This document shows, piece after piece, positions 672 through 64,000 of a stretch of DNA of 64,000 nucleotides; position 1 is the stretch's first letter, and each line of letters begins with the position of its first letter. Below the pieces are notes generated by a model. The model saw only the letters and a program-made list of their open reading frames with translations. It did not search any database and was not told where the DNA came from. The DNA is taken from NCBI GenBank assembly GCA_020186115.1, contig WSYJ01000169.1, positions 157,340 through 221,339 on the forward strand, read 5' to 3'. This DNA comes from Histomonas meleagridis. Its lineage: Eukaryota; Parabasalia; Tritrichomonadida; Dientamoebidae. The position numbers and the translations under genes were made by a program.

Positions 672-899
672 TGAAGAAGACAATTAGAATTTTCTTTTGA
701 ACTTTTTTCTCTAAGTAAATTTACAATTTCTTTGTAACCTTTTTGTTGTGTAATTTGAATTGTTGCATCAAATTATTAAAACATATATAAAATTATTCAA
801 ATGAATAGTTTTTGCATTAACATCAATTCCTTTATCTAAAAGTAATTTTACTATTTCTATATTATTATTCTTCACTGCTATATGAAGTGCTGTTTCAAA
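672..899 (-). pseudogene. Relic of two ankyrin repeats separated by a frame-breaking spacer
   Basis: Read on the minus strand, one ankyrin repeat (FETALHIAVKNNNIEIVKLLL then GIDVNAKTI) is followed by about 40 nt of AT-rich sequence containing a stop. A second, weaker repeat follows (ATIQITQQKGYKEIVNLL) and runs to TAA. The arrangement matches the larger ankyrin loci at 15.2, 48.4 and 51.4 kb. No DUF3447 domain lies upstream, so this looks like the terminal remnant of such a locus. The spacer before the first repeat is expanded into a 20-bp tandem repeat. Confidence 0.6.
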
Positions 900-1037
900 T
901 TATTAAAACATATTCTAAATTATTAAAACATATTACAAATTATTAAAACATATTTCAAATTATTTAAACATATTCTAAATTATTAAAACATATTTCAAAT
1001 TATTTAAACATATTCTAAATTGTTAAAACATATTCTA
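897..1037. repeat. 20-bp tandem repeat, about 7 copies
   Basis: The unit AAATTATTAAAACATATTCT and close variants repeat with an exact 20-bp period. It lies directly upstream (in minus-strand sense) of the ankyrin relic, in the position of an ankyrin spacer. It shares the words TTTTAATAATTT and ATGTTTTAATAA (minus strand) with spacers elsewhere, so it probably arose by expansion of one spacer. Confidence 0.8.
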
Positions 1038-6010: not shown

Positions 6011-7832
6011 ATGAACGAACGCATTCAAGAGATCGGTGAATATAGACTTGGACGTACTCTAGGTTCCGGAACAACAGGAAAGGTAAAGCTCGCAGTTCAT
6101 AAAGATACAAACGCACAATATGCCATCAAAATTATCAAAAAATCAATGTTTGCAGTAAAACCCGATCTTGAACGTAAAATACACAGAGAAATAGCACTTA
6201 TGCGATTATTAGAACATCCACATCTCTTAAAATTATATGAAGTATTTGAGTCACCTCATCATCTTTATATCGTTATAGAATATGCTTCTAACAGTGAACT
6301 GTTTGATTATCTTATCCAGCAAAAATTTCTTCCACAAGAAGAAGCTATGATGTTTTTCCGAGAAATAATATATGGACTTGATTTTCTTCATTCACATGGA
6401 ATTTGTCATAGAGACCTTAAGCCAGAGAATATCCTTCTTGACGAAAACATGCATATAAAAATTGCAGACTTTGGTTTTGCAAGATGGATGAGATCAAATA
6501 TTGCAGAAACTTCTTGTGGATCACCACATTATGCAGCCCCAGAAGTAATATACGGACTTCCATATGATGGTCGATGTGCTGACATATGGAGTTGTGGCGT
6601 AATTTTATATGCTCTCTTATCAGTATGTTTTTTATGCGGATTTCCTTCCATTGAATTATAATATGGGATTAGGTCAAGAATTTTTGCTGTTAAGCTGAGA
6701 TGTTTGACGCAAACTTGGAAGAGATTGTTCTCTTGATTTCAAAGACAAAAATTTGTCAATACAAAAGTGCTTAATTCAGTAGAAAGTAATCGTCTACTTT
6801 CAAAAATCAACACTTTTGAGATAAAGTGCAGAAACATCCACAGTTTTAACGTTCTTCTTACTTGGTTCCAATTTTTTATTCAATAATAGGAAATTCGCAT
6901 TTATATTATTAACTAACACACAGGGTCGTTTGCCATTTGATGATGAATCAATTCGAAGTCTCATGAACAAAATCAAAAGTGGTCAATATAAGATGCCACC
7001 CTTTCAACCCGAAGTTCAAGATTTAATTTCCCGTATGCTATGTGTAGATGTTAAATCTCGTATTACCATTTCACAAATCAAGTCACATCCAGCATTTCTA
7101 ATGGGTCTACCCAAAGGATATCAAGTACCAACACCATTACCAAATCCGACAGTATCCACACCAATTGAACTTACGCCAAACGACTTACCATTTATGCATT
7201 TATTACGATCCATTGGTTATAATTCCGATGATGAGATCATCGAAGAATTAACCTCAAATGAGTACACCAGTGCGAAAATGTTCTATCAAATGTATAACCA
7301 CAACACTCTTCTTGATTCATTACCATGGTATGATGAATCAGATGGAACAATGATAGTTGGTCCATCCGAAATAGAACAAGCATTAATGATGCCGCCGAGG
7401 CAATTTGCGGCCATTGGAAACATTTACGATCCATTCGCCAAGAAGAAAGTTCTTGTCGAATCGATTGGTAGTGTCCATACACCACAGTCATTTGTCCAAA
7501 GACCCGATTGGGACACAACTGCTCTTCCTAAGATGTCGACTGACATTGAACAAATGTTAATTGGCATCCAATTACCTTTGGAAGAGTTAATGCTCTTCTT
7601 GCAAAAGCAACTGACATCGTGCAGAATCAAATGGTTCCACTTTAGTGACACAGAAATGGTCGCGAAAAGGCTGGAAACAGACATGTTGTTAACTCTGACG
7701 GCATCGTACGAATCGCCCGAAGTTTTGACATTGTGTGTGCTGTTGCTGCATGGACAGAAAGAAGAGTTCGAGGTGCTGATAAAGATGTTGGAAAGAGGAC
7801 TCAACGAGGTGTTGAACGAGGCTATGATTTGA
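6011..7832 (+). CDS. SNF1/AMPK-BRSK-type CAMK Ser/Thr protein kinase, two exons
   Basis: Exon 1 is 6011-6622 and exon 2 is 6924-7832. Splicing gives 506 aa, joining ALLS to GRLPFDDE in phase 0 at the conserved 'LSGRLPFDD' site of this family. The kinase domain spans about residues 11-265: glycine loop GSGTTGKV (18-25), Lys40, HRD (133-135), DFG (153-155) and a T-loop TSCGSPHYAAPE of the kind phosphorylated by LKB1-like kinases. A UBA-like segment and a KA1-like C-terminus (ending in SYESPEVLTLCVLLLHG) follow. The parts upstream and downstream of the intron are each open but neither makes a complete kinase alone. Confidence 0.9.
6623..6923 (+). other. Canonical trichomonad spliceosomal intron (301 nt)
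   Basis: The donor GTATGT is at 6623-6628. The fused branch point and acceptor ACTAACACACAG ends at 6923. Both match the published trichomonad consensus exactly. Removal keeps phase 0 and restores the conserved GRLPFD motif of the kinase. The interior has in-frame stops in all frames. Confidence 0.95.
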
Positions 7833-13983: not shown

Positions 13984-15189
13984 ATGGGAAGCACCCAAAG
14001 CCAGGGAAAAGGTCCTTCAAAATATAGCGAAAATCTTCAAACATTAAAATGTATTGAACAAATAATTTATGACTTAAATGCAAATAATGTCAATGAATCA
14101 GTAGAATCAGCATTAAAATATTTCAATGAAGAATTATTATATTCATTTAATTTTATTATTTGCTCGATTGTATTTTCATATTTTGTATCAAAAGGTTTTT
14201 ATCATTTATGTTTTGACTATTTAAAAGTACTTGAAAAAAAAGAAAAAGAGACTTATAAAATTTTACATGATAATATCACAAATATTTGTGCTTTTATATT
14301 TTTGAATTCTTCACAAGAATCAAATTATCTTTATGAAAAAATGATTGAACATGATATTATTCATCCTAAAATTTTGGCAACAAAAAGAAGTCCATATTTC
14401 GCACATTATCTTTCAGAAGAAGAATATAATAAATTTCATGGCTTTAAAATTTATAATTATTTTTATGAAAACATTGATGAACTAAAAAAGAATGATTGGG
14501 AACTTCATAAGAAATTAATTAAAGAGGGACATAATCCGAATGAAATTGCGAAAATAATTCGAAATGATGAAATCGAAAAACTTCAAGAAATATCATCACA
14601 AAATAATTTTGATTTTAATCAAACAATTGAGCCATCACTTTATGAAAGATGCTCATTTGTTAATCAAGAAAATGTTTCATTAATTGATTATGCAGCATTT
14701 TTTTCATCTATTAAATGTTTTAAATATTTACTTATGAATGGAGCAAATGTAAATAACACAGGTAAATATGCAGTTGCAGGTGGAAATGAAGAAATTATTC
14801 ATTTATGTGAGCAGAATCATTCATCATTTGAAGGAGCATATGAAACAGCAATTTTGTTTCATAGAAATGATATCTTTAATTATCTTTATGAAAACAAAAT
14901 CGAAAAAATTAGGAATCTAGAAGATTTAGGAATTAAATGTCTTTTATATCAAAATTATGAGATTTTATTATTTCTTGAAAATGAAGGATTACAGGTTAAT
15001 AAAGCTCTTGTAATTAAATCTATTGAAACAGGGAATACATTTATGGTACAGTATTTCCATGAAAAAAATCCAATTTCTATAAGTTTTTTTGAAACTTCAA
15101 TAATTTTTGTTAATAAAGAACTATTTAACTACTTAATTAAAGAAAATATTATGAATATTTTCGATAAGAGTGATTTTATAATTAATTGA
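13984..15189 (+). CDS. DUF3447-ankyrin protein, N-terminal module (locus A)
   Basis: A 401-codon ORF with the N-terminal module shared by four loci here: a helical region of about 150 aa, then the DUF3447-type core LIKEGHNPNEIAKIIRNDEI ... SLIDYAAFFSSIKCFKYL ... GGNEEIIHLCEQNHSSF. The frame stops at 15187, where the first spacer begins. Ankyrin repeats resume in other frames downstream (15226-16078), so the protein probably continues if the spacers are skipped. The ATG follows the context GGTATATAATGG, similar to locus B. DUF3447 proteins are a large trichomonad family of unknown function, probably protein-interaction scaffolds. Confidence 0.8.
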   Translation: MGSTQSQGKGPSKYSENLQTLKCIEQIIYDLNANNVNESVESALKYFNEELLYSFNFIICSIVFSYFVSKGFYHLCFDYLKVLEKKEKETYKILHDNITNICAFIFLNSSQESNYLYEKMIEHDIIHPKILATKRSPYFAHYLSEEEYNKFHGFKIYNYFYENIDELKKNDWELHKKLIKEGHNPNEIAKIIRNDEIEKLQEISSQNNFDFNQTIEPSLYERCSFVNQENVSLIDYAAFFSSIKCFKYLLMNGANVNNTGKYAVAGGNEEIIHLCEQNHSSFEGAYETAILFHRNDIFNYLYENKIEKIRNLEDLGIKCLLYQNYEILLFLENEGLQVNKALVIKSIETGNTFMVQYFHEKNPISISFFETSIIFVNKELFNYLIKENIMNIFDKSDFIIN

Positions 15190-16078
15190 ATGTTTGTTTG
15201 AGTGTTAATATGCTTTTAAATTTTTGGAAAATATCCAAATTATTTCAAACAGCACTTATGTATGCATCTGTAAAAGGTCATATAGATATTGTTAAACTAA
15301 TTCTTGAACAAAAAGGAAATGATATTAATGCCAAAGACATTTATTTATTCAATTTAATATTTACTTTAATAATTTTTTCATATATCAAATTAATATTTGG
15401 GGTTTAATCAAAACATTTAATACAGTACTAATTTGGGCAGCTGAATTTGGTAAAATAGAAATATTTAACTTACTTCTTAAACAAGAAGAAATTGATATCA
15501 ATACTCAAAATATTTGTGTCTTTTACTTAAAATATGTTTTATGTACTTTATATTTCATAATTATATTTGGAAATTATTTTAAAAATTTCAAACAGCTTTA
15601 ATGATGCAGCATCAAATGGTTATATAGAAATGGTTAAATTACTTCTTGAACATAAAGGAATTGATGTTAATGCTAAAGATATTTATTCATTTTGTTTAAT
15701 ATTTATTGTAATAATTTTGGATTTCATTCTAATAATTGGAAAATATTCAAATTGTTTAGAACATCACTTATGTATTCAGTTGAAAATGGAGATATAGAAT
15801 TTGTTAAATTACTTCTTGCTTATAAAGGAATTGATGTTAATGCTAAAAATATTTATTTGTTTGATTTATTATTTATTTTAATAAAATTATGCTTGAAAAC
15901 ATTATTTGGAAATTATTTATACTGTTTCAAACAGCACTAATATGGGCATCTAAAAATTGTCGATGTATAGATGTAATTAAATTACTTGTTGAACATGAAT
16001 GCATTGAAATCGATCAAGATATTTATTTGTTTGAATTAAAGTTAGTTAATAACTTACAATCCAACAAAATAATGATTT
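15190..16078 (+). repeat. Ankyrin array with frame-breaking spacers (locus A)
   Basis: Five ankyrin repeats start (Thr codon of the TAL motif) at 15249, 15422, 15592, 15761 and 15931, with periods 173, 170, 169 and 170 bp. Each core (TALMYASVKGHIDIVKLIL, GNDINAKDI and similar) is open, and the spacers hold stops. (T)TTGG occurs 23 nt before the repeat start in all five. The third repeat has a 1-nt deletion just after ACAGCTTTAATG (about 15604), which accounts for the 169 period. The last repeat runs to TAA at 16076-16078. Confidence 0.75.
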
Positions 16079-38532: not shown

Positions 38533-38978
38533 GATAAACATAAAATGTGAATGATCACCAATTTGGATAAACATAAAATGTGAATGATCACCAATTTGGA
38601 TAAACATAAAATGTGAATGATCACCAATTTGGATAAACATAAAATGTGAATGATCACCAATTTGGATAAACATAAAATGTGAATGATCACCAATTTGGAT
38701 AAACATAAAATGTGATTGATCACCATTTGGATAAACATAAAATGTGAATGATCACCAATTTGGATAAACATAAAATGTGAATGATCACCAATTTGGATAA
38801 ACATTAAATGTGATTGATCACCATTTGGATAAACATAAAATGTGAATGATCACCAATTTGGATAAACATAAAATGTGAATGATCACCAATTTGGATAAAC
38901 ATAAAATGTGAATGATCACCAATTTGGATAAACATAAAAATGTGATTGATCACCAATTTGGATAAACATAAAATGTGA
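38533..38978. repeat. 33-bp minisatellite, 13 full units plus a partial
   Basis: GATAAACAT recurs at 38533, 38566, 38599, 38632, 38665, 38698, 38730, 38763, 38796, 38828, 38861, 38894, 38927 and 38961. The period is 33 bp except for two 32-bp and one 34-bp units. Each unit contains TGATCACCAATTTGG. The 32-bp variants share GATTGATCACCATTT. On the minus strand 33 bp equals 11 codons (MFIQIGDHSHF) but the 32-bp units break the frame, so it is not coding. It starts 80 bp after the kinase stop. Confidence 0.95.
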
Positions 38979-47066: not shown

Positions 47067-47200
47067 ATTAGGTTGTATAGTTTTATTTCGAAAGACACCC
47101 CAAGTAAAGTGGAGTGTTGCATCCCAGATTCTAACGGATTTTTTTCAATTTGATTTAATCGTTGACAATAAACTGTCAGTTTTCTTTTTCTTATAGGGTA

Positions 47201-48379
47201 ATGGAAGAAAATAAATTTTTCCATTTGTTAAAAGCAATTCAAAATATCACTTTAAATATAAACGAAGATAACATATTATTTGATGTTCAAGTAATTCTTT
47301 CTCTTTTTGATGATAATTTTTCATATTCTTTTAACCTCATTATTTGCAAATCGTTATATTCATCTTTTGCTTCACGAATAACAGATTTTAATTTATGTTT
47401 TGAATTCTTGAAAGCAATTGAAAAAAATGAAAAAGAATTAACTAAAAGTAATTATAAAATTTTAGATATTTTTGCACAATTTCTTTTAACAAAATCAACT
47501 CAAGAATCCGATTATCTTCTAGAAAAATTACTTGAACAAAACATAATTAGTTCGGAAATTGTTAAAAATAAGTCAACATTATATTTTGCGCAATATAAAA
47601 CTTTAGAAGAAATCAAAAATTCGGATTACTTAGAATATGAAACACCTTTTTGGAATGATTTTTTTGATAACTATGAGCAAATTTCGAAAGATAATTTTAA
47701 ACTTCATAAACAATTAACTTATGAAGGGGTTAATCCATTAAAATTAGCTATAATAATCCGAAATGACGAAATAGAAAAGCTTCAAAAATTATCATCTTCA
47801 CAAAATGAATTTGATTATAATCAAAAAATTAAACCATCACTTTATGAAAGATATACTTTTATTAACAATGATACTATTTCACTTATTGATTATGCAGCAT
47901 TTTTTGGATCAATAAAATGTTTTAAATTCTTATTTTTGAATGGTTCTAATACAACAAATACAGGTAAATATGCAATTGCTGGAGGAAATTTAGAAATAAT
48001 TCATATTTGTGAAGGGAATAAAGTAATATTTAAAGATGCATGTGATGCAGCAATTGAATATCATCGCAATGATATTTTTAAATATATTTATGAAAACAAA
48101 ATTTTCGATATAAAATATTTAAATGATTTAGTACGAAAATGTATTTTATATAATAATTATGAACTTTTAAAATATTTTATTGATAAAGGAATTGAAATCG
48201 ATGATTCTATTATCAATGAAGCAGCAAAGAATGGAAATTTGTTTCTTGTTAAATATTTTTTTGAAGAAAATTATATTCCAAATGATATTTTGGTTTCAAT
48301 AACAAAATCAGGAAACATCGAATTATTTAAATATATTCTTGAGCAAAGAAAAGTTAACATCAATATCAAAGATATTTAA
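47201..48379 (+). CDS. DUF3447-ankyrin protein, N-terminal module (locus B)
   Basis: 392 codons from ATG 47201 (an in-frame ATG at 47162 is also possible). I prefer 47201 because the homologues at 13984 and 62918 begin just before the same helical region. The N-terminal helices (residues 1-150) precede the DUF3447 core: IIRNDEIEKLQKLS, SLIDYAAFFGSIKCFKFLFL, GKYAIAGGNLEIIHICEGN and EYHRNDIFKYIYENKI. The frame ends NINIKDI-stop exactly where the first ankyrin spacer begins. The longest spacer-separated ankyrin array of the window follows directly. It is probably the N-terminal exon(s) of a protein of about 700 aa. Confidence 0.8.
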   Translation: MEENKFFHLLKAIQNITLNINEDNILFDVQVILSLFDDNFSYSFNLIICKSLYSSFASRITDFNLCFEFLKAIEKNEKELTKSNYKILDIFAQFLLTKSTQESDYLLEKLLEQNIISSEIVKNKSTLYFAQYKTLEEIKNSDYLEYETPFWNDFFDNYEQISKDNFKLHKQLTYEGVNPLKLAIIIRNDEIEKLQKLSSSQNEFDYNQKIKPSLYERYTFINNDTISLIDYAAFFGSIKCFKFLFLNGSNTTNTGKYAIAGGNLEIIHICEGNKVIFKDACDAAIEYHRNDIFKYIYENKIFDIKYLNDLVRKCILYNNYELLKYFIDKGIEIDDSIINEAAKNGNLFLVKYFFEENYIPNDILVSITKSGNIELFKYILEQRKVNINIKDI

Positions 48380-50217
48380 TATTTTTTTATAGCATTTATT
48401 TCGAAAAAATTGGATATATTTAAATTTATTGGAGTTTCTTATCGCCATTTAATACAGCTCTTATGATTGCCTCTGAATATGGATATACAGAAATTGTTAA
48501 AATACTTCTTGAACAGGAAGGAATTCTCATTAATAGTAGAAATATAATTTTATATCATTTAAAATTTCTTTTTAAAAAATGATATATGAAAATAATTTTC
48601 GGAGTTAAAGTAGATTATTTAAAACAGCAATTTTTTTGACATCACAATATGAAATAGTTAAATTGCTTTTCTACCGTAAAGAAATTGATATTAATCCCAA
48701 GGCTGTAAATTTTTTCAATTTAAAATTTATTTTAATATTTTAATATTTTGAAATAATGTTTGGAAATTATTTAATATATTTTGGAAAGCATTAATTTATG
48801 CATCACAAAAAGGTTATACCGAAATAGTAAAATTACTTCTTGATCAAAAAGAAATTGATATTAATGCCAAAACTATTTATTTTTTGCATTTAAAATCTCA
48901 ATTTATAAATTCAGATTTCAAAAATATATTTGGAAATTGTTCAAAACATTTGATACAGCACTTATTTTAGCTTCTCAAAATGGACACACAGAAATAGTTA
49001 AATTACTTCTTGAACAAGAAGAAATTAAAGTTAATATTAGAACTATTTGTTTATATTATTTAAAATTTATTGTAATAATTTGATATTTTAAAACTATATT
49101 TAGAAGTTATTTAAATTATTTGAGACAGTACTTATTTTAGCTTCTCAAAATGGGCATACAAAAATAGTCAAATTACTTCTTGAACAAAAAAAAATTTATA
49201 TTAATGCTAAAAATATTTGTTTTATTTATATGACATTTTTTTTGATGATAAAATATTTCAAAATAATATTTGGAAATTATTTAAATTATTTGAAACAGCA
49301 CTTATGAAAGCATCTTATAATGGTCATATAGAAATAGTTAAATTACTTCTTGAACAAGAAGAAATATATATCAATGCTAAAAATATTTATTTGTTTTATT
49401 TGAAATTTATTTTAATAATTTTTTATTTCAAAATAATATTTGGAAATTATTTAAATTATTTTCGACAGCACTTATTTTGGCGTCTGCTCGAGGTCATATA
49501 GAAATAGTTAAATTACTTCTTGAACAAGAAGGAATTGATATTAATGCTAAAAATATTTATTTGTTTTATATAGAATTTATTTTAATAATTTAAAAATTCA
49601 AAACAATTTTTGGAACTTATATAAAATATTTTATACAGCACTTATATGTGCATCTTGGAATGGTCATACAGAAATAGTTAAATTACTACTTGAGCAAAAG
49701 GAAATTGATATTAATGCTAAAAATATATGTTTATTATGTTCAAAATTTATTTTATTAATTTTATGTTTCAAAAGAACATTTGGAAATAATTTCAAATGTA
49801 TGAAACAGCGCTTATTATAGCTTCACAAAAAGGGTACAAAGAAATAGTTAAAATACTTCTTGAACAAGAAGGAATTGATGTTAATGCTAAAACTATTTAT
49901 TTGCTTTATTTTGTGTTTACTTTAATCATGTGGTATTTATAAATAATATTTGGAAATTAATTAAATTATTTTGGACAGCATTAATAACTGCACGTAGAAG
50001 CAAACATAAAGAAATAGTTAAATTGCTTTTCGAATTAAAAGGTGATGAAGTAATTGATGAATTTAATATTTGTTCCATTAATTGTTCACTTCAATCACTA
50101 GTTATTGACCAACAATATTTCTTATATTGCAAAATAAATAAAAATAATAGTCATATAGATGGAAGAATTCCATTACAGAAACAATACCTGAACGGTAAAT
50201 TTTCAGTAATAAAATAG
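48380..50217 (+). repeat. Ten ankyrin repeats with 170-bp period and frame-breaking spacers (locus B)
   Basis: Repeat starts (Thr of TAL, or its equivalent) are at 48454, 48624, 48785, 48955, 49125, 49295, 49465, 49635, 49805 and 49975. All periods are 170 bp except one of 161, explained by a 9-bp in-frame deletion in the ankyrin core. Each 93-bp core is open and reads like TALMKASYNGHIEIVKLLL with INAKNI. Each spacer ends with a 23-nt module beginning (TTT)GG and often TTTnnn before ACA. Spacers contain stops and shift frame by +2. The last repeat continues open to TAA at 50215-50217 with a unique tail (QQYFLYCKINKNNSHIDG). Confidence 0.85.
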
Positions 50218-50536: not shown

Positions 50537-51358
50537 ATGCAAATAATTTCAGATCTCAGCCAAGAAAATCTTGATTTATCAATTAAACAAACTATGGATT
50601 TATTTGATTCAAAATATCCATTTACATTTAATCATGTAATTTGTGGTTTAATTTACTCTACTTTCAAATCAATGCGAGATAATAGTGATATATATATAAT
50701 GTATTTGAAGGCAGTTCAAACCAAAGAAGAAGGATTAACACATAACATCCCTAAGCTCCTTGATCAATTTGGTAAGTATATTGTTCGCTTTAAAGAAGGG
50801 GAATCATACTATCTTTTTAATGAAATGATAGAACAACAATTAATTGATGTAAAAATTCTTAAGAATATTCAATCATATTATTTTTTGCATCTTAAAACAA
50901 ACATTTTTGATGACGATCCACTTAGTAAAATAGTGATAAATAATTATGATAAACTTTCGGAAAATAATTGGGAGCTTCATAAGAAATTAATTAAAGAAGG
51001 AATTAATCCAAATGAAATTGCAAAAATAATTCGAAATGACGAAATCGAAAAACTTCAAGAAATATCATCACAAGATGATTTTAATTTTAACCAAACAATT
51101 AAACCATCACTTTATGAAAGATATTCATTTATTAATCAAGAAAATATTTCATTAATTGATTACGCAGCATTTTTTTGTTCAATACAATGTTTTAAATATT
51201 TGCTTATGAATGGTGCAAATGTATTTAATGCAGGTAAATATGCAATTACAGGAGGAAACATTGAAATCATTCATTTATCGAACAAAATAATTCATCATTT
51301 CAAGATGCTTTTGAAACAGCAATTAAATTTCAAAAAAATGATATCTTATCATAAATGA
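50537..51358 (+). CDS. DUF3447-ankyrin protein, N-terminal module with a frameshift (locus C)
   Basis: ATG 50537. The frame matches locus A closely (NWELHKKLIKEGINPNEIAK, IIRNDEIEKLQEISSQ, SLIDYAAFFCSIQCFKYLLM). After EIIHL the CATTTATGTGAACAA of related copies reads CATTTATCGAACAA, a 1-nt loss near 51278. The homologous reading continues in the other frame (EQNNSSFQDAFETAIKFQKN) to a stop near 51355. The last ~100 residues of the module present in locus A are missing. The copy is therefore damaged unless the shift is a sequencing error or is corrected. Confidence 0.65.
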   Translation: MQIISDLSQENLDLSIKQTMDLFDSKYPFTFNHVICGLIYSTFKSMRDNSDIYIMYLKAVQTKEEGLTHNIPKLLDQFGKYIVRFKEGESYYLFNEMIEQQLIDVKILKNIQSYYFLHLKTNIFDDDPLSKIVINNYDKLSENNWELHKKLIKEGINPNEIAKIIRNDEIEKLQEISSQDDFNFNQTIKPSLYERYSFINQENISLIDYAAFFCSIQCFKYLLMNGANVFNAGKYAITGGNIEIIHLSNKIIHHFKMLLKQQLNFKKMISYHK

Positions 51359-52480
51359 CTTCAAATATTTGAAATTTCAACACAATTTATGGAATTTTTT
51401 TAATTTGTTTTTAACAATTTTTATGATTGTAGTTATCAATGGTTATACTGAAATTGTCAGATATCTTCTTAAATATCAAGTTATTGATAGTCATGTTAAG
51501 GATAATATATAATTCAACAATATAAAATTTCTTTGTATTATTTGGAATTTATATATAATGTTTAGTACTGCTTTAATGCATGCAGCATTAAGCGGTCATA
51601 TAGAAATAGTAAAATTATTACTTGAACAAGAAGGAATTGTTATCAATATTGATGATATCTATTTAAACAATTTTGTAACTTATTATAACATTTGATGTTT
51701 TTTCTGATTATTTAAAACACTTTTTATATTAGGCTTATTAAATGGGTATAAAGAAGTTTTTGTATTATATATTAAACGAAAAGGAATTGATGTAAATATT
51801 CTTTAAAATATTTTGAAAATTCATTGTAATATTTAGAAATTACTTATCAAATTTAATACAGCACTTCTTCTAGCAACATTAAATGGTCGAATTGAAATTG
51901 TTAAATTACTTCTTAAGCTTGATGGTATAAACATTAATACTAATACTATATATTTAATTCATTTTCATTTTATTTTATCATAATAAAGTCTCAAAATAAT
52001 ATTTGGAAAATATTTAAATTATTTTATACAGCACTTATGATTGCATGTGAATTAGATTATATTGAGATTGTTAAATTGCTCCTTGAACAAGAAGGAATTG
52101 ATGTTAATGCTAAAGATATTTATTTGTTCTATTTGAAATTTATTTTAATAATTTGATATTTCAAAATAATATTTGGAAATTATTTAAATTATTTGAAACA
52201 GCACTTATTTTAGCATCTTATTATGGTCATACAGAAATAGCTAAATTACTTCTTGAACAAGAAGAAATATATATCAATGCTAAAGATATTTATTTGTTCT
52301 ATTTGAAATTTATTTTAATAATTTTTTATTTCAAAATAATATTTGGAAATTATTTAAATTATTTGAAACAGCACTTATTTTAGCATCTTCAAATGGTTAT
52401 ACAGAAATAGTTAAATTACTACTTGAACAAGAAGGAATTGATATAAATGCTAAAGATATTAATGTTTATAATTTATTTTT
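51359..52480 (+). repeat. Ankyrin array with spacers of variable length (locus C)
   Basis: Repeat starts are at 51414, 51567, 51717, 51858, 52028, 52198 and 52368, followed by a final one at 52504. Periods are 153, 150, 141, 170, 170, 170 and 136 bp. The cores remain open (e.g. TALLLATLNGRIEIVKLLL) although two are weak (51414, 51717). Spacers vary from about 43 to 77 nt, but the TTTGG element stays 23 nt before the resume codon in all but one (51858, TTTAG). Confidence 0.8.
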
Positions 52481-52878
52481 GGAATTTATTATTACGACTT
52501 GAAAGTGAATTGATGAAAGCAAAACATAAAGATAATAATGATATTGTTGGATTAATACTTGAGCAAAATAAGTTTATTCTACAACAAGAAAAATTAGACA
52601 TCAACGATAATGTTTCAACTGATCGTAGAGATAATTTCATACCAAGACATTGTACTTTTGAACAAACTGGATATAAACAAGTACAACATAATAAGTGTTA
52701 TAGGTGTAAAACATGTATGTGCAATTACTCAATTTGTGAGGAATGCGCAAAGGTTTGTCATAAGGGACACCAAGTAATTTCAGTGGGTAGTGAAAAAATG
52801 TTTTGCGGATGCGGAGCAGGTAATTTCGCGTCCCCATGTAAACTAATTTCAAAATGTAAAACTCAAAATAATAAATAA
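52481..52878 (+). CDS. Last ankyrin repeat plus C-terminal UBR-box zinc finger (terminal exon of locus C)
   Basis: The open frame (ORF from 52447) carries a final weak ankyrin repeat (SELMKAKHKDNNDIVGLIL) and then a UBR box of about 65 residues: HCTFEQTGYKQVQ, CYRCKTCMCNYSICEECAK, VCHKGHQVISVG, FCGCGAGNF and a last Cys. The Cys/His spacing fits the N-recognin type (PF02207) finger that binds destabilising N-terminal residues in N-degron E3 ligases. No RING or HECT domain follows, so it would be a reader or adaptor, not a ligase by itself. All metal ligands look intact, which argues that the terminal exon is maintained. Confidence 0.75.
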
Positions 52879-52973
52879 AGATTACATTAATAAGAAAAAA
52901 TAAAACAAAAATTTTACTTTTCTTCGTTTCATTATTATTTTTAATTGAAATAAAAAAGTAAATTTATTTGTTT

Positions 52974-53848: not shown

Positions 53849-54159
53849 GAAATTTATTTGCATTTTTTCAAACAGCACTTATTATTGCATGTTCAAAAGG
53901 ATATGAAGAAATTGAACTTTTTCTTAAATAAAAAGGAATTCCTTTTTATCTATCGATGGATATTAATGCTAAAGATAACAATGGCAATAAAGCAATAGAT
54001 TTGGCAGGTAAAAATTTTAATAATAAAATTGTGTCATGTATAGAGGCAATTAAATCATCTTTAGGGGAACAAAACATATACTCAAACCCCATCGGAAGGA
54101 GTTTTCCTACAAAAAACAGTAGTAAAAAACAGAATCCGATTTCGTGTAGTGAGTACTAA
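53849..54159 (+). pseudogene. Orphan terminal ankyrin fragment
   Basis: One ankyrin core (TALIIACSKGYEEIELFLK) starts at ACA 53872 and is interrupted by TAA. It resumes as MDINAKDNNGNKAIDLAGKN and ends at TAA 54159. A spacer-like sequence with the G at -23 precedes it. There is no DUF3447 module on this strand nearby (a minus-strand gene precedes it), so it is a displaced or leftover 3' end. The junction NAKDNNGNKAIDLA shows what the repeat boundary looks like without a spacer. Confidence 0.6.
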
Positions 54160-62307: not shown

Positions 62308-62917
62308 AAAAATGATTTTTAGTAAAATAATAAAAAAGAATATTTTTGACACTTTTATTTATTTAATTAAGAAAAATAATTTTTATAAATTTATGTCATT
62401 TTATAATTTATTAGTAGGTCGGTAAATATATTGTTATAATAATTAATTAAATGAATTAAGTTTAAAAAGTTTTGCATAGTATTCATATAGTAATTTGCAG
62501 ATTGTTATATATGTTAAGGGAAAATTTTTATGATATATTTTTTTAATAAAAAGAGTGATCACTAAAGAATAAACCAAAAAATATTTATATAATTAATTGT
62601 ATAATAATATTTAATCACAAATATATATAAAATGAAAGTTATAATATCGTTGTAATTAATGTAACATTTCTTATTAATTAATATAAAAACATATTCCATA
62701 AAGCAATGGTTTTATTGTTTGGTTAAAATCAAAATCATTTTGTGATGATATTTCTCAATAAAATTCTATAAAAAATATAAATTATATTTCTTTCTTTCAA
62801 ATATTTATGATAATCTTAACGTTCGTCGCATTTCTTAATTTTACAAATTTATAAAAACGGTTAAATCGCATCAAATGATTTTGATGTTCTAATTAAATTT
62901 TTTTAAATTCCTTTAAA
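62308..62917. other. Intergenic, nothing recognised
   Basis: Extremely AT-rich. AACGGTT at about 62857 is a Myb-like word 60 bp before the next gene. Confidence 0.45.
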
Positions 62918-64000
62918 ATGCATCATATTCTTACAGCTCCTTATGAAATCATCTTTGATTTAAATGATGATAACATAGAATATTCAGTTCAGCAAACAAT
63001 CAAATTATTAAATACTGATTATCAATATTCGTTTAATTATATTATAATTCAATAGATTTATTCTGCATATCACTTGCGGATGAATAAATTAAATCTATAT
63101 TTAAATTATTTAAAGTTGTTACAAAAAGAAGAAGAAGAAATTAACAAAAATTTCACAAATATCTTAGAAATATTTATTAATTATGTAATAAAAAATAAAT
63201 CAAAAGAATCAAATTATATTATTAATAAAATTATTACAAAAAATTTAATCGATCAAAAATTAGTTCATAAATTTAATTTAACAAATTTCAAATTTAACCA
63301 AACAAAAAAATCAACAAATTCAAATGAAATTTTAAAAATAATTCGAAATGATGAAATAGAAAAACTTCAAGAAATATCAACTCAAACGAAATTTGACTTT
63401 GATCAAAAGATTCAATTATCATTTTATACAAAATATTCATTCACTAATCAAAGAGATGTTTCATTGATTAATTATGCAGCATTTTCTGGGTCAGTTAAAT
63501 GTTTTAAATATTTACTTCTGAATAATGCGAATGTATTTGATACAGGCAAATACGCAGTTGCAGGTGGAAATATCGAAATTATTCATTTATGTGAACAAAA
63601 TCATTCATCATTTGAAGGAGCTTATGAAGCAGCAATTGAATTCCATCGAAATGATATCTTTAGATATCTTTACGAAAATAATTTGGAAAAGTCAGACCAA
63701 AACAAACAAACTGATTTTGATCGAAATTATTTATCGTTGGTTTGTGTAGAAAATAATAATTTCCCACTTTTAGTATATTTTATAGAAAGTGGGTTACAAT
63801 TCGATGATTCCTTATTAAACTTATCAGCGAAATATGGGAGTTTGCTTTTTATTATTAATAAAAATTCCCATATCCCAAAAAACATATTGCCTTATGCTGC
63901 AAAAGCAAATAATTGTGAAATTATTAAATATATTCTTCAACAAAAAGGAATTGATATCAATGCTAAAGGTAATGCTTATTTTAATAATTTTATGTTTCAG
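62918..64000 (+). CDS. DUF3447-ankyrin protein with one in-frame stop, cut by the window edge (locus D)
   Basis: From ATG 62918 the frame reads through the usual N-terminal helices, meets TAG at 63053-63055 and is then open in the same frame to the window end. The later part has the full DUF3447 core (IIRNDEIEKLQEISTQ, SLINYAAFSGSVKCFKYLLL, GKYAVAGGNIEIIHLCEQNH, EFHRNDIFRYLYENN) and reaches NCEIIKYILQQKGIDINAK. The next bases look like the start of another spacer (CTTATTTTAATAATTTTATG). One stop in about 360 otherwise intact codons suggests a recent lesion, readthrough or a sequence error. Alternatively translation could start at ATG 63080. Confidence 0.7.

Follow-up and report, generated by a model that had tools for sequence, protein, structure and literature searches.

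Fixed-length 17-nucleotide segments between single codons of ankyrin-repeat genes in Histomonas meleagridis: a candidate class of individually removed intervening sequences

The window analysed here is a stretch of 64,000 nucleotides from the poultry parasite Histomonas meleagridis (contig WSYJ01000169.1, positions 157,340 to 221,339), in which an uninterrupted region on the forward strand is followed by a tandem array of ankyrin repeats. The 5′ part lies in a mechanically called open reading frame (47162-48379) that carries DUF3447 (PF11929), Ank_2 and Ank_4 above the Pfam cut-off and ends at the TAA of 48377-48379, while the array repeats match the Pfam ankyrin models PF12796/PF00023. Ten cores alternate with ten spacers of 80 nt, each running from the codon at the ankyrin D position to the T codon; the spacers are listed below with their four 17-nt segments and the single codons after them.

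47201..48373, forward strand: uninterrupted 5′ part, DUF3447/ankyrin N-terminal region, from ATG 47201 to the D codon GAT 48371-48373
48374..48453, forward strand: spacer 1; segments 48374-48390, 48394-48410, 48414-48430, 48434-48450; codons AGC TGG GGA AAT (SWGN), these triplets being the most variable register at period 20
48454..48543, forward strand: ankyrin core 1, TALMIASEYGYTEIVKILLEQEGILINSRN
48544..48623, forward strand: spacer 2; segments 48544-48560, 48564-48580, 48584-48600, 48604-48620; codons KDGK
48705..48784, forward strand: spacer 3, following the core shortened in frame by 9 nt; segments 48705-48721, 48725-48741, 48745-48761, 48765-48781; codons KNGW
48875..48954, forward strand: spacer 4; segments 48875-48891, 48895-48911, 48915-48931, 48935-48951; codons KQGD
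49045..49124, forward strand: spacer 5, the sole one without Gly; segments 49045-49061, 49065-49081, 49085-49101, 49105-49121; codons KDRE
49215..49294, forward strand: spacer 6; segments 49215-49231, 49235-49251, 49255-49271, 49275-49291; codons DNGE
49385..49464, forward strand: spacer 7; segments 49385-49401, 49405-49421, 49425-49441, 49445-49461; codons EFGS
49555..49634, forward strand: spacer 8; segments 49555-49571, 49575-49591, 49595-49611, 49615-49631; codons RKGY
49725..49804, forward strand: spacer 9; segments 49725-49741, 49745-49761, 49765-49781, 49785-49801; codons KYGE
49895..49974, forward strand: spacer 10; segments 49895-49911, 49915-49931, 49935-49951, 49955-49971; codons CGGW
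49975..50217, forward strand: last core with the C-terminal tail, both open as far as TAG 50215-50217

A preliminary description of this DNA had reported ten ankyrin cores at 170-bp intervals, with one at 161, and the core start positions (48454, 48624, 48785, 48955, 49125, 49295, 49465, 49635, 49805 and 49975) bear this out: the core-to-core steps are 170, 161 and then seven times 170, and the shorter step is explained, as proposed, by an in-frame loss that leaves that core 9 nt shorter. All ten cores translate without a stop, and Tandem Repeats Finder places the 170-bp period at 48651-49985, 15224-15938 and 51991-52460. The codon at the ankyrin D position of this array is N in five cases, T in three, D in one and A in one. 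The spacers had also been said to break the frame and hence to require removal or bypass; this holds, since the frame is not kept over a step of 170 nt and a TAA is encountered in the first spacer, at 48377-48379. In contrast, the idea that a spacer of 68-77 nt is the removed unit was not supported: the evidence resolves the spacer into four 17-nt segments, each followed by one codon that would be translated; the earlier lower figure of 68 nt equals 4 × 17, but these nucleotides are not contiguous.

The layout of the spacer reads D/N-[17]-x-[17]-x-[17]-G-[17]-x-T-A-L, that is, four 17-nt segments with single codons between them. When 206 units of 170 bp were stacked, the spacer was found to be conserved except at the triplets 108-110, 128-130 and 168-170, with GGA conserved at 148-150, and the blocks between these triplets are exactly 17 nt long (91-107, 111-127, 131-147 and 151-167). 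Ahead of the first segment stands a D codon in 127 of the 206 units and an N codon in 53, and the four triplets, none of which is a stop, encode mainly N/K/E/D at the first place, Y/D/N/G/W at the second, G (194/206) at the third and K/N/E/Q/R/W at the fourth. Note that the analysed units were picked by DNA similarity to a window array, so that close copies are favoured, and that the loci overlap, the units having been de-duplicated by sequence context. In a register scan over periods of 14-24 and shifts of 0-19, variability peaked at period 20 and shift 0 (3.24 bits, 0/740 stops); stops were likewise missing from two other registers, whose variability was low (1.04 and 0.74 bits).

The length of 17 nt was recovered both when the segment length was left free and when one length was imposed. 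With lengths free between 14 and 26, 889 of the 970 segments came out at 17 nt, and with one forced length in the collected loci, 17 scored above 10 at 221 of the 253 boundaries, a score that no other length between 12 and 23 reached at any boundary. The end motifs in these tests were learned from 17-nt cuts and favour 17, so the free-length result weighs more. Stop-free parses exist at 253/253 boundaries for a length of 14, though with low scores, and at 251/253 for a length of 17. The 32 boundaries that score low at 17 include diverged units, units that are 1-2 bases off in T-runs, and spacer 9 of the window. A few segments, within T-runs, are apparently 16 or 18 nt long, possibly owing to pseudogenes or nanopore homopolymer errors. 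In the window, all ten spacers decode stop-free as a 17-nt lattice with Gly as the third codon in nine, and their segment sequences differ from one another though all decode; the free-length parse cuts spacer 6 differently and gives segments 2 and 3 of spacer 7 as 18 and 16 nt.

With the segments left out, the lattice reads D-x-x-G-x-T, the ankyrin turn, which is found only in this way (its Gly being that of the 194 units), and the 34-residue repeat is restored. For the window gene, the 3,017 nt from ATG 47,201 to TAG 50,217 minus 40 × 17 nt leave 2337 nt, or 779 codons. We judge it reasonably probable, from the sequence, that this is one coding gene of a large ankyrin (DUF3447-type) family whose 17-nt segments are individually removed or skipped. 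Non-coding segments of exactly 17 nt, mostly starting with A and ending with TT, would thus part the codons of the D-x-x-G-x-T turn; each would be removed or skipped singly and the codons joined in frame, so that 170 nt of DNA would yield a 34-residue repeat. The Pfam scores follow the same order with both models: Ank_2 reaches 273.5 bits when the 17-nt segments are skipped, 213.6 when all 80 nt are removed and 234.6 when only the last codon is kept, and Ank reaches 262, 218 and 226.8 bits, respectively.

A single non-canonical intron of ~74-77 nt per repeat, with the inner triplets untranslated, would agree with the continuous ankyrin codons that flank the spacer, and removing 74 or 77 nt does keep the frame. 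However, such a full removal drops most of the D-x-x-G-x-T turn and lowers the Pfam score, most of the parsed length variants described below differ by whole segments and whole codons, and untranslated triplets should hold stops and need show neither pN > pS nor a Gly at the third place. On the triplet statistics and the length variants this explanation was rejected, and we regard it as very improbable.

Those statistics are consistent with translated codons. Across the genome, the triplets between AATAATTT and ATATGTTTTAATAATTT are TAA or TGA in 3 of 1,992 cases and those between AATAATTT and ATTTCAAAATAATATTTGG in none of 1,230, which gives 3/3,222 combined, TAG being left out of these counts. 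When all three stops are counted in the collected loci, 2 of 929 triplets are stops compared to ~104 expected from base frequencies; in addition, 538 of 820 triplets are one change away from a stop and 0/820 are stops. Among the 7,540 codons of the cores, 7 are stops, where column frequencies would predict 152. Few positions of the unit vary as much as three of these triplets, so they have mutated often and yet are stop-poor. The previous suggestion that the protein is under selection is supported. The rarity of stops in cores and spacer triplets contradicts the alternative of a decaying array, raised at the same time; in this view the ankyrin arrays would be non-functional and their spacers would contain a 20-bp minisatellite. 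We consider it improbable, although by eye some individual copies in the window seem damaged (the DUF3447 frameshift in the gene at 50,537 and the core stop near 53,930) and 32 of the 253 boundaries parse poorly.

Substitution patterns, computed from 6,000 random pairs among 205 units, distinguish the parts of the unit. The spacer triplets 108/128/168 show pN (0.526) above pS (0.293), as compared with a pS of 0.395 and a pN of 0.428 at hypervariable core codons, 0.163 and 0.104 at scaffold codons, and 0.088 and 0.063 at triplet 148; the segments differ at 0.100, below the synonymous scaffold sites (0.163). Thus, three triplets behave like exposed ankyrin positions, the fourth behaves like a fixed Gly, and the segments behave like constrained DNA. 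Such a conservation above that of synonymous sites is unusual for ordinary intron interiors and counts against a plain-intron view. The hypervariable codons lie at unit positions 13-15, 22-27, 108-110, 128-130 and 168-170, at exposed turn and helix positions, which we take to be the ones randomised in designed ankyrin proteins; with pN > pS, they look like diversifying binding surfaces.

Segments are present or absent one at a time. Among 271 neighbour core distances below 400 bp in the collected loci, 214 equal 170 and 25 equal 153, and 16 of the 22 distinct 153-bp boundaries are without exactly one segment while its codon is kept (segment 1 in 14, segment 2 in 2), the other 6 not fitting. 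As an example, GAT and AAA are followed directly by segment 2 in loci L002, L033 and L036, where segment 1 is missing, and TAT and AGT are adjacent in locus L032, where segment 2 is missing. Some 173-bp variants carry one extra codon, and a 150-bp unit in locus L039 has lost one segment along with its codon. Boundaries lacking one segment would be expected from the copying of a processed message, and ancestral absence would look identical. A second family, made of ATATGTTTTAATAATTT segments, has 2-17 segments per boundary: at 23 core sites (L049-L053), 21 boundaries fit (17+3)n exactly, and its triplets hold 0/130 stops. We infer that 20-bp duplications (one codon plus one segment) would enlarge the turn one residue at a time. 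Multiplication of the array itself by tandem duplication is plausible.

The other loci of the window display both segment families as well as a boundary free of segments:

768..1037, reverse strand: second segment family; by eye, an ankyrin core is preceded by seven codon + 17-nt units of the ATATGTTTTAATAATTT type and followed by two further segments
15224..15938, forward strand: second 170-bp array, 3′ of the DUF3447 open reading frame 13984-15189, with diverged segment sequences
51480..52480, forward strand: third array, some boundaries with three segments
53959..53997, forward strand: segment-free ankyrin boundary DINAKD-NNGN-KAI, four codons between the D and T positions

Tandem Repeats Finder reports a period-20 repeat at 897-1037, within the second-family site. 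The boundaries after core 15422 of the second array and after core 51858 of the third parsed poorly, and a boundary of the third array near 51.5 kb reads by eye as D-N-[17]-K-[17]-G-[17]-S-T, with three segments. In the second array, the core at ~15.6 kb (15591-15640) is apparently one base short, with a core-to-core distance of 169, to be ascribed to a pseudogene or to an error in the assembly. As seen by eye, the DUF3447 part of the gene 50537-52890 seems one base shorter near 51,270 than that of the gene at 13,984, and its 3′ end (52,498-52,875) is open, Cys/His-rich and like a UBR-type zinc finger; a Pfam search of three C-terminal pieces, including this 3′ end, gave no match. By eye, a stop is present in the core near 53,930, and a further DUF3447-like gene at 62917-64000, with an in-frame TAG near 63,052, runs off the window end within the first segments of its first boundary (GGT-AAT-GCTTATTTTAATAATTT-TAT). 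A nearly perfect 33-bp minisatellite of 13.5 copies occupies 38533-38978.

The array is not restricted to this contig stretch. At least 195 matches were obtained from the 40 scored of 1,793 first-look candidates in the genome, and this recurrence is far beyond chance. The exact ATATGTTTTAATAATTT 17-mer occurs 2,213 times in the genome and 4 times when read backwards, while GGA + segment 4 + NNN + ACAGC has 1,225 exact copies and its reversed pattern 0; two exact patterns alone mark 3,443 genome places (2,213 + 1,230). Inspection by eye of six isolated matches to a segment on contig C1, few among thousands, placed five in ankyrin DNA and one in an apparent ankyrin remnant, with none in another gene type. 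Boundaries free of segments, with four codons between D/N and T, gave seven exact genome matches besides the NAKD-NNGN-KAI of the window, when 12 nt were asked for and, genome-wide, also GG in the third codon; six of the seven fall within the listed ankyrin matches. Ankyrin stretches that are free of spacers and have long open frames are also present in the genome.

The 17+3 lattice, its coding signature, the presence or absence of single segments and the spread over the genome are directly supported here, whereas how the segments are passed over has to be argued from signals in and around them. Canonical splice signals had been described as missing from the spacers, and indeed none of the 215 distinct segments has the form GT..AG, 184 of them beginning with A and 136 ending with ATTT. 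GTATGT is found in 2/253 spacers (1/215 distinct segments), and neither ACTAACACACAG nor CTAAC in any of the 253. The kinase near 6.6 kb does have both intron signals, GTATGT and ACTAACACACAG, as had been noticed; ACTAACACACAG occurs once in the window, at 6912, in the kinase intron. The stretch 6623-6923, in the gene first called a kinase, is a probable canonical trichomonad-type intron of ~301 nt (GTATGT ... ACTAACACACAG), which suggests that ordinary splice signals exist in the genome. A genome search for GTATGTN{5,35}ACTAACACACAG gave 0 matches and is uninformative for longer introns such as that of the kinase.

The same coding signature would result if the segments were kept in the mRNA and the ribosome skipped 17 nt after each codon (programmed bypassing), and ribosomes are known to jump non-coding gaps (PMC8211752). 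Nevertheless, the codon before a segment equals the last three bases of that segment, as a take-off/landing match, in 12 of 820 cases compared to 10.7 in shuffled sequences, the 80-nt spacers show no fold signal (mean z of 0.03 over 25 spacers, with one at −3.78), and forty successive hops would be needed in the window gene. We consider such ribosomal skipping unlikely, and treat it as the main rival. Translation of the spacers with a −1 or +2 frameshift at each segment end was rejected, despite the mostly open segments 1, 2 and 4: in the frame read from the preceding codon, stops are carried by 8 of 56 distinct forms of segment 1 (14.6 in shuffled sequences), 5 of 59 of segment 2 (21.0) and 10 of 54 of segment 4 (22.3), a deficit that shared descent may explain, yet by 35 of 46 forms of segment 3, above the 20.5 of shuffled ones, and the repeats would be ~57 residues long. 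Frameshifting is thus hardly credible. Since there is no GT-AG, no fold signal, no codon match and an excess of stops in segment 3, RNA excision by unusual or unknown machinery is favoured. The segments would then be introns of very small size, non-spliceosomal (or else radically altered), that are cut from the RNA before translation.

We know of no intron kind in which 17-base stretches between single codons are removed one by one, and the open-licence PMC literature, preprints lying outside it, yielded no earlier report of such segments. Several known systems share part of these properties. In Trichomonas vaginalis, type B spliceosomal introns go down to 23 nt with the CTAA branch motif and the splice sites kept, three ankyrin-domain genes are among the intron-bearing ones, and in stableri at most two introns per gene are reported (PMC12316389). 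The likeness lies in very short intervening sequences in a parabasalid, some of them in ankyrin genes; here, in contrast, the segments are 17 nt long, 0/215 have GT..AG, 0/253 spacers contain CTAAC, exons would be single codons, and one gene holds 40 segments. The tiny introns of Stentor coeruleus (15-16 nt, AU-rich) are nearly equal in size to the present segments and of almost fixed length, but they start with GU and end with AG, and rows separated by single codons are not described in the consulted parts of PMC9505925. Euglenid nonconventional introns have non-canonical borders and a removal mechanism given as unknown, and they range from tens of bases to more than 1 kilobase with base-paired ends (PMC4770533), whereas here the length is fixed and the 80-nt spacers, folded whole, show no fold signal. 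Bypassing, as in T4 gene 60 and the Magnusiomyces mitochondrial byps, resembles our case in having short untranslated gaps within frames; in T4 gene 60, the peptidyl-tRNA detaches from a take-off codon and pairs again with a landing triplet (PMC8211752), while the gaps found here lie one codon apart and show no take-off/landing match. Taken with the results above, we lean towards a new class of intervening sequence, of a fixed 17 nt without GT-AG, lying between codons, with thousands per nuclear genome, that would be excised singly by an undescribed RNA-processing activity and that, in a small sample, is confined to ankyrin turns.

Proteins of relatives and current annotations were also compared. 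P0001, from a relative, is ~53% and at most 55% identical among the matches listed for the H. meleagridis genome (P0001 being the protein compared, not P0012). In its read-through tail, read by eye in translation, G follows D at a distance of 20 codons, the spacing of the H. meleagridis units, and the remainder of the tail, at the level of translation only, would accommodate 17 nt ahead of the following turn codon. Likewise from translation only, P0012, ascribed to the same relative, can be read as a boundary of three segments in which the frame is open by chance. In P0007, one boundary consists of four residues and lacks a segment, and a search for relatives of its 50-residue piece gave 3 proteins, with no processed form. 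In Tritrichomonas foetus, P0021 carries uninterrupted NTKDEKGKTPLQIA, and the C-terminus of P0025 (TRFO_14777) goes from the ankyrin boundary SRNN into VYFVIFIQAFLLYFLFNSF, as if an unannotated interruption stood at the same place. In H. meleagridis itself, the ankyrin-family genes P0017-P0020 are named ‘caskin 1,2’ in NCBI, and P0017 and P0019 end, by eye, at or near the first ankyrin boundary, so that repeat arrays may be missing from the annotation. The annotation of the virulent strain lists 573 introns, and a word search of the main text of PMC8529796 found neither ‘ankyrin’ nor ‘splic’.

Altogether, segments of this kind may explain why members of the ankyrin family look truncated in current annotation. 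If our reading is true, eukaryotic nuclear genes would be breakable down to exons of a single codon, and a means of measuring or recognising 17 nt without standard splice signals would have to exist. This would amount to an undescribed activity in RNA processing (or decoding), in a parasite for which few introns are reported (573 compared to the 3,443 marked places). A 20-bp tandem duplication, normally a frameshift, would then lengthen a hypervariable binding loop by exactly one amino acid, and the ankyrin family of H. meleagridis would be able to vary this loop one residue at a time.
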